A stretch of 64,000 nt of DNA from Thiohalospira halophila DSM 15071 (GTDB lineage: Bacteria > Pseudomonadota > Gammaproteobacteria > Thiohalospirales > Thiohalospiraceae). The first letter of the stretch is position 1; each line of letters starts with the position of its first letter. This document shows positions 56,660-59,086 of the stretch, one piece after another. The position numbers and the translations under genes are program-made. The notes beneath the pieces were generated by a model. That model did not search any database. It had not been told where the DNA came from and worked only from the letters and a program-made list of their open reading frames with translations. The stretch spans positions 458,577-522,576 of the forward strand of contig NZ_FOMJ01000001.1 of NCBI RefSeq assembly GCF_900112605.1, in the 5' to 3' direction.

Positions 56660-57922
<1,263 letters not shown>

Positions 57923-58092
57923 GCGGTTGTCGCTCCTGAGTGCTGTGCGTTGGCGCTGGGGCCGAATTCCGGGGCGAAAGTCTACTGGAACGGGCGCGGT
58001 GCGGGAACCGGGAGCCTTTTCCCGGCGCTGCCATTCCGTAGTCCTTCTCATCCCTTCGGGGCAGGTTTCCCGGGAGCCGGGGACTCCTCGTC

Positions 58093-58113
58093 CAGGGACG
58101 CGAGAATCATCCC
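58093..58113 (+). repeat. Decayed partial copy of the structured repeat core
   Basis: CAGGGACGCGAG followed by AATCATCCC resembles the first 21 bases of the core at 58190-58210 with 3 mismatches. Weak flanking complementarity (GGAGCC / GGCTCC) suggests an eroded element. Confidence 0.4.
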
Positions 58114-58166
58114 GTATCCCGTTGCGAAGAGGGACTGCCTGACCGGGGCTCCGAAAGGGCAGACAC

Positions 58167-58272
58167 CCCGGGCCGGGGGAAGCCTCGGTCAGGGACGCGA
58201 GGACCGTCCCTGGCGCTCCACGGCGGCCATCCATGGCCGCCGAGGCCCTGACCGAGGCTTCCCCCGCCCGGG
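58167..58272. repeat. Structured hairpin repeat, copy A (upstream of nudJ)
   Basis: A 106-bp element. A 27-bp stem with one bulged C (58167-58194 pairing 58246-58272) encloses a 51-nt core (58195-58245). Inside the core GGCGGCCATCCATGGCCGCC forms a second hairpin. The core is 49 of 51 identical to the reverse complement of copy B, while the stems are unrelated in sequence. It lies in the 439-bp icd-nudJ gap, 90 bp before nudJ. Confidence 0.85.
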
Positions 58273-58361
58273 CTATCTGCACGGAGCATACCCCTCCGCG
58301 ACTCCGCTCCGATCATGCACACTAGGAGGATATCGAAGCCATCCCCACCCGGAGCACTCGC

Positions 58362-58814
58362 ATGGTCTGGAAACCCCGCACCACCGTCGCCGCCGTTATC
58401 GAGGCCGACGGCCGCTACCTCCTGGTGGAGGAGGCCGATGCCGAGGGCAACCGGGTGCTCAACCAGCCCGCCGGCCACCTGGAACCCGGGGAATCGCTGG
58501 AGGCCGCGGTGATCCGGGAGGTGGCCGAGGAGACGCGGCGCGACTTCACACCGGGAGCGCTGGTCGGGATCTACCGCTGGGACGGCGCACCGGACGGCTC
58601 CACCTTCATGCGCTTCACCTTCGCCGGCAGCGTGGGCGAGGAGATCGCGGGACGAGAGCGGGACGCCGATATCCTGGCCACCCACTGGCTCACCGCCGAG
58701 GAGGTCCGCGAAGCCGGGGCCAGCGGACGCCTGCGCAGCCCCCTGGTGGCCCGGACGCTGGAGGACTATCTACGCGGGGAGCGCTATCCCCTGACGGTGT
58801 TGCAGGAGGTGTGA
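58362..58814 (+). CDS. nudJ: NUDIX hydrolase, NudJ-like
   Basis: A 150-residue phosphohydrolase. The NUDIX box reads GHLEPGESLEAAVIREVAEE followed by T-R-R, so the catalytic glutamates are present but the last glycine of the usual EExG is arginine. Position right before mnmA and hflD matches nudJ of E. coli, which hydrolyses nucleoside triphosphates, diphosphates and HMP pyrophosphate. It is bracketed by two inverted copies of a structured repeat, which may insulate it from icd and mnmA. Confidence 0.85.
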   Translation: MVWKPRTTVAAVIEADGRYLLVEEADAEGNRVLNQPAGHLEPGESLEAAVIREVAEETRRDFTPGALVGIYRWDGAPDGSTFMRFTFAGSVGEEIAGRERDADILATHWLTAEEVREAGASGRLRSPLVARTLEDYLRGERYPLTVLQEV

Positions 58815-58887
58815 GCAAGCCAGCCTATAGGCCGGGAGAAACCAGGAACCTCGAAGGCTTCGTCTACATCCGAAACAACCCCAGCGC

Positions 58888-59002
58888 CTTTCATCCGGCC
58901 GGGAAGGGGGTAGCCAGGGCCTCGGCGGCCATGGACGGCCGCCGTGGAGCGCCAGGGATGGTCCTCGCGTCCCTGGCTACCCCCTTCCCGGCCGGATGAA
59001 AG
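58888..59002. repeat. Structured hairpin repeat, copy B (downstream of nudJ)
   Basis: A 115-bp element in opposite orientation to copy A. A perfect 32-bp stem (58888-58919 pairing 58971-59002) encloses the same 51-nt core (58920-58970). Stem sequences differ wholly from copy A yet pair perfectly, so base pairing and the core are kept, not the arm sequence. Confidence 0.88.
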
Positions 59003-59086
59003 ACGCCCCAGAGGAAGCCTCCGACCTCGACAGCCCCAACCTGGTATCACCGACTACCGTTATCGCCACCACCCCCATCCCGTACA

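Follow-up and report, generated by a model that had tools for sequence, protein, structure and literature searches.

What kind of genetic element could keep its centre constant while the arms that flank it change freely but remain complementary to each other? This question is raised by two inverted hairpins, copies A and B, located in the 64,000-nt stretch of the Thiohalospira halophila genome analysed here (the window).

Structure of the two copies

Copy A (58167..58272; 51.8 bits with the core-only model R2, described below) has its loop-bearing RNA strand on the minus strand and consists, in RNA orientation, of a 5' arm (58251..58272), a conserved 61-nt core with two hairpins (58190..58250) and a 3' arm (58167..58189). 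Copy B (58884..59006; 50.6 bits with R2) has its loop-bearing RNA strand on the plus strand, with its conserved 61-nt core (58915..58975) lying between a 5' arm at 58884..58914, perfectly paired over 58888-58914, and a 3' arm at 58976..59006, perfectly paired over 58976-59002. The plus-strand gene between them (58362..58814), which serves here as context, is taken to encode a Nudix hydrolase; Nudix models match it at sub-threshold level only, and the name nudJ is unconfirmed; icd (NADP isocitrate dehydrogenase) lies on one side of this neighbourhood and mnmA on the other. No sigma-70-like promoter was found close to copies A and B.

The original prediction described both stems as paired almost without fault, and this was borne out. 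In copy B, positions 58888-58919 pair with 58971-59002 throughout (32/32), and in copy A 21 consecutive pairs without a mismatch (58174-58194 with 58246-58266) end at one bulged base, beyond which pairing resumes. These stems are far from chance, with RNA folding z-scores of -9.7 for copy A and -12.2 for copy B, and the longest other hairpins in the 64 kb reach 15-17 bp and are terminator-like. The 51-nt cores, reported to agree at 49 of 51 positions as reverse complements, do so, and lie inside the 61-nt cores (58190-58250 and 58915-58975), which are 97% identical in the same sense; the expected number of chance matches of the core probe in the window is 0. The inner hairpin ascribed to the core is present; the core is a three-way junction, made of a closing stem and two hairpins whose ANGGAN loops had been overlooked. 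On reading the sequence, these hexaloops are AUGGAU (58229..58234) and AGGGAC (58206..58211) in copy A, and AUGGAC (58931..58936) and AGGGAU (58954..58959) in copy B.

A dispersed family of hairpin elements

Copies A and B are members of a large, dispersed and previously uncatalogued family, and the core is not limited to the two places from which it was first described. In the T. halophila genome, a probe made of the 61-nt core found eight full copies and a truncated one, and all eight full copies of this window type have their own complementary arms of 22-29 bp (8/8). A covariance model built from these eight copies (R1) detects many more copies with a different core, and the core-only model R2, which cannot favour paired arms past the six innermost pairs, gives 44 matches to the core across the 2.7 Mb of the genome, the copy count resting on model searches. 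In each full copy, a stem of 20-34 bp is capped by a core of ~61-64 nt. Core sequence assigns most copies to one of four subfamilies, S1 to S4, of which S1 is the window type with 8 copies.

R2 matches were obtained in 68 of 369 gammaproteobacterial genomes, with 82 to at least 150 matches in each of six Methylotuvimicrobium genomes, and the Chromatiales MAG JALSSV (G382) contains about 50 copies. Among the hosts of the consensus core are Nitrococcus, Acidihalobacter, Sedimenticola, Methylotuvimicrobium buryatense, Marinimicrobium alkaliphilum and Aliidiomarina soli, as well as several Chromatiales and Acidiferrobacterales MAGs. A DNA search of 11 relatives from the same taxonomic family as T. 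halophila found no copy, and an exact-pattern scan with the core of this species had no match elsewhere, whereas the consensus core did.

No Rfam family was matched above threshold, a permissive search yielding chance microRNA-like, Ysr224 and weak RsmW matches only, and no description of the element was found in a literature search that covered papers outside subscription. The Ysr224 (Yersinia sRNA 224) matches involve three copies of G382 (L317, L319 and L321; best E 1.7e-5). Those that were checked are on the strand that does not carry the loops, and the matches probably reflect long-hairpin similarity only. Five weak R1 matches in another genome (G020 L042, L045, L047, L049 and L051) belong to a distinct multi-copy repeat, a hairpin whose loop is AUGGAU and whose arms are conserved.

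Core loops resembling CsrA sites

In the loop-bearing orientation, both core hairpins end in C-ANGGAN-G, a hexaloop with a C-G closing pair, with a spacing of 23 nt from loop to loop. CsrA/RsmA proteins recognise an ANGGAN hexaloop with variable N positions, and sites 10-63 nt apart can be bridged (PMC7652899). Judged from sequence, the core loops are a match to this published recognition loop, and their spacing would be bridgeable by one dimer. Two csrA genes are present in T. halophila, and the hexaloop, the bridgeable spacing and the csrA of the host together make the element a candidate CsrA/RsmA-binding RNA.

The loop positions were counted in 98 copies, namely 30 of S2-S4, 42 of G382 and those of 26 other genomes. 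Letters other than the commonest one occupy 2 of 784 cells at the A and GGA positions (1/240 in T. halophila, 1/336 in G382 and 0/208 in the other genomes) and 103 of 392 at the N positions (25/120, 51/168 and 27/104, respectively); mild caution applies, given that these copies come from sequence-and-structure models, with matches far above threshold. Few core columns of G382 vary as much as the loop N positions. Of the eight core positions that vary in S1, three are loop N positions and two others make up one covarying pair. The minimum-energy fold of S1 pairs part of loop 2. We think that the two ANGGAN loops are the purpose of the constant core. Some G382 copies depart from the common plan: five have enlarged cores with additional GGA hairpins (L334, L208, L219, L249 and L251), and two are without the first hairpin (L335 and L336).

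The element shares C-G-closed ANGGAN hexaloop hairpins, with more than one site per RNA, with the CsrA/RsmA-sequestering sRNAs CsrB, CsrC and RsmX/Y/Z. Unlike them, it occurs in dozens of scattered copies, has its two putative sites on a three-way junction that ends a stem of 20-34 bp, and lacks an Rfam match. TwoAYGGAY RNA (Rfam RF01731), a proposed CsrA-binding RNA (PMC4333381), also has two hairpins with AYGGAY loops, and the external stem that links them shows little sequence conservation; the copies tested do not fit the RF01731 model, which matched none of them even at E 5-10. The element can be described as a putative CsrA-type twin-hairpin RNA that is carried by a MITE-like dispersed repeat.

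Mobility and relation to known repeats

In Methylotuvimicrobium, one genome (G258, L346) carries an element of ~165 nt, both arms being part of it, and the corresponding site of another (G378, L366) is empty. This pair of occupied and empty sites supports former mobility of the dispersed family. Palindromic ends (TATACC/GTATA) were seen there. Like bacterial MITEs, the elements are non-coding palindromic inserts of ~110-200 bp, with an occupied and an empty site in Methylotuvimicrobium; unlike them, their conserved part is an internal core.

REP/REPIN sequences, which RAYT (Y1) transposases mobilise, resemble the element in being short, palindromic, intergenic and repeated many times. In contrast to these, the arms of the element are variable, a conserved GTAG foot is lacking and no RAYT gene is linked. 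The only Y1_Tnp gene in T. halophila (L256, C4:141433-141765), whose predicted Y1 transposase is RAYT-like and extended at its C terminus, has no copy within 1.5 kb. A REP reading was rejected on these grounds, the GTAG foot being present in 2 of 40 copies. Integron attC sites were likewise rejected, none of 40 copies having both RYYYAAC and GTTRRRY sites.

Divergence of the arms

The pattern put forward for copies A and B, in which the core stays constant and the arms change freely while remaining complementary, turned out to be general among the copies of T. halophila. Selection on structure, which had been suggested from this pattern, is well supported: in S1, 28 of 34 stem pairs show two-sided changes and no pair shows a change confined to one side, and one type of non-Watson-Crick pair prevails on one strand, as described below. 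One-sided states are almost absent from S2 and S4 too, and S3 has 38 two-sided and 26 one-sided changes. An absence of shared stem sequence, as originally claimed, is true of the comparison of A with B, where 9 of 24 arm positions are alike, but it does not extend to the eight S1 copies, which retain a weak common arm consensus (45% against 34% shuffled, a difference reached in 0/5000 shuffles). Between-copy arm similarity and core identity are 0.466 (0.348 shuffled) and 0.94 in S1, 0.385 (0.371 shuffled, chance level) and 0.93 in S2, 0.659 (0.308) and 0.95 in S3, and 0.417 (0.367) and 0.87 in S4, a position-specific consensus being kept in S1 and S4. Thus, some subfamilies keep an ancestral arm consensus, and the arms are not all unrelated.

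In G382, the arms change faster than the core, and pairwise comparison of copies gives a mean of 9.3 differing pairs out of 23, yet 1011 of 1035 pairs (97.7%; 45 copies, 23 pair positions) are Watson-Crick. A minimum spanning tree of these copies contains 150 two-sided and 24 one-sided changes, with 12 and 5, respectively, on edges with two differences or fewer, and three copies (L313, L314 and L318) carry indels matched in both arms. Orthologous copies for comparing arm changes in place are too few or too similar, and in one such Methylotuvimicrobium pair (L347/L376) the changes are one-sided and G.T.

Where the arms deviate from Watson-Crick pairing, the loop-bearing strand shows G.T in 33 cases and A.C in 6. 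Related S3 copies contribute about half of the G.T excess, and the rest (9:2) and G382 (8:3) show the same direction. This bias points to a loop-bearing strand that functions single-stranded, as RNA or ssDNA.

Proposed function and alternative explanations

The explanation that we favour, to which sequence comparison leads us to give an even chance, is that of a dispersed RNA decoy for CsrA, whose stem would be kept paired by selection and by template switching from arm to arm. The copies would be those of a scattered element that was once mobile, does not code for protein and probably acts through an RNA product. Its conserved tip, a three-way junction with two ANGGAN hairpins 23 nt apart, would offer a twin site for one CsrA/RsmA dimer and act as a decoy wherever transcription crosses the element on the loop-bearing strand. 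The long stem would only present this tip, so that its sequence would be free and its pairing would not. Long near-perfect palindromes are hotspots for template switching; a change in one arm would therefore tend to be copied into the other, and differences between copies would arise as matched pairs. Template switching has been documented at quasipalindromes in E. coli (PMC7202029) and proposed for RNA stems (PMC8794818); it predicts one-step correction to perfect complementarity and matched indels. Whereas it is known from reporters and rRNA gene histories, dozens of paralogous copies in one genome are concerned here.

For the arms, the main rival is pure compensatory selection on the same CsrA-type RNA element, in which a second mutation would be selected after a first one, mostly through G-U intermediates, and template switching would play no part. 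G.T intermediates are indeed present, with the RNA strand favoured (33 vs 6), one-sided changes are many in S3, and those seen in place in L347/L376 are one-sided G.T. From these last two observations it also follows that any arm correction would be neither instant nor universal. Nevertheless, the closest G382 copies differ mostly two-sidedly (12 vs 5) and by matched indels, their arms outpace the core and remain 97.7% Watson-Crick, and S1, S2 and S4 have hardly any one-sided states, and we regard compensatory selection alone as rather unlikely. The original prediction had suggested another origin, arms made on insertion. As an inverted duplication of the target, this could apply at least to the T. 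halophila subfamilies with unrelated arms. S2, whose arms are at chance similarity although its cores are 93% identical, would be in keeping with it. The position-specific consensus in S1 and S4 and the clear homology of the S3 arms speak against it, and so do copies elsewhere: the Methylotuvimicrobium empty site lacks both arms, which are conserved in that genus, and G382 copies share sequence beyond the arms too. It follows that in these two hosts the arms are part of the element and not copies of the target; the proposal is thus unsupported, and we consider it very improbable.

For the core, the main rival is a selfish DNA hairpin of MITE or REP type, recognised as ssDNA by a transposase through its GGA loops, the likeness to CsrA sites being a coincidence. 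Insertion is demonstrated by the empty site, copies lie in both orientations, the tolerance of G.T on one strand would also be compatible with ssDNA, and T. halophila does have one Y1-type transposase gene. Against this stand the distance of more than 1.5 kb between that gene and any copy, the REP foot GTAG in only 2 of 40 copies and, position by position in three independent sets, the published CsrA pattern of fixed A and GGA with free N, and we find this alternative improbable. As regards the decoy itself, the lack of a preference for the sense strand counts against it, as does the position of 16 of 40 T. halophila copies between divergent genes, where read-through is least expected. The lack of a sigma-70-like promoter near copies A and B and the partial pairing of loop 2 in the minimum-energy fold of S1 weigh against it too.

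A wider proposal can be made tentatively, with somewhat less than an even chance of being right: a mobile repeat may have spread CsrA-binding twin hairpins in tens to more than 100 copies per genome through many gammaproteobacteria, amounting to a distributed titration of CsrA, and its stems may be continually rewritten by template switching, making each of these genomes a set of parallel records of stem evolution without mismatched intermediates. If this were true, the Csr/Rsm system of global regulation would be tied to mobile DNA by a widespread uncatalogued repeat, whose copy number would set the amount of CsrA sequestered. Independently of CsrA, the ~50 paralogous stems of G382, at graded divergence, make testable a long-standing question, that is, whether compensatory changes in RNA stems proceed via mismatched intermediates or by one-step template switching.

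Genomic context and further observations

The 40 T. halophila copies comprise 16 between divergent genes, 3 between convergent genes, and 12 sense and 9 antisense to co-directional neighbours; the corresponding numbers in G382 are 1, 6, 10 and 10. The preference for divergent over convergent positions (16:3) is therefore reversed in G382 (1:6). A reading as 5' leaders was rejected, there being no orientation bias to genes in either genome, and one as intrinsic terminators because no T run follows the hairpin and 16 of the 40 copies lie between divergent genes. Since context differs between the two genomes and orientation is unbiased, neither role is consistent.

At one T. halophila site (L007/L008, C1:755623-755767), a full copy adjoins a truncated one without the first half of its core. 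Two orthologous copies in other genomes (L115 in G203 and L120 in G067) and ~110 nt on each side of them are identical except for one core base, the 3-kb surroundings having 93.6% identity only. In the window, long open frames on the minus (56660-58282) and plus (56720-58999) strands run through the copies and translate the core, and predicted proteins with AMDG stretches of that type are probably translations of the repeat.
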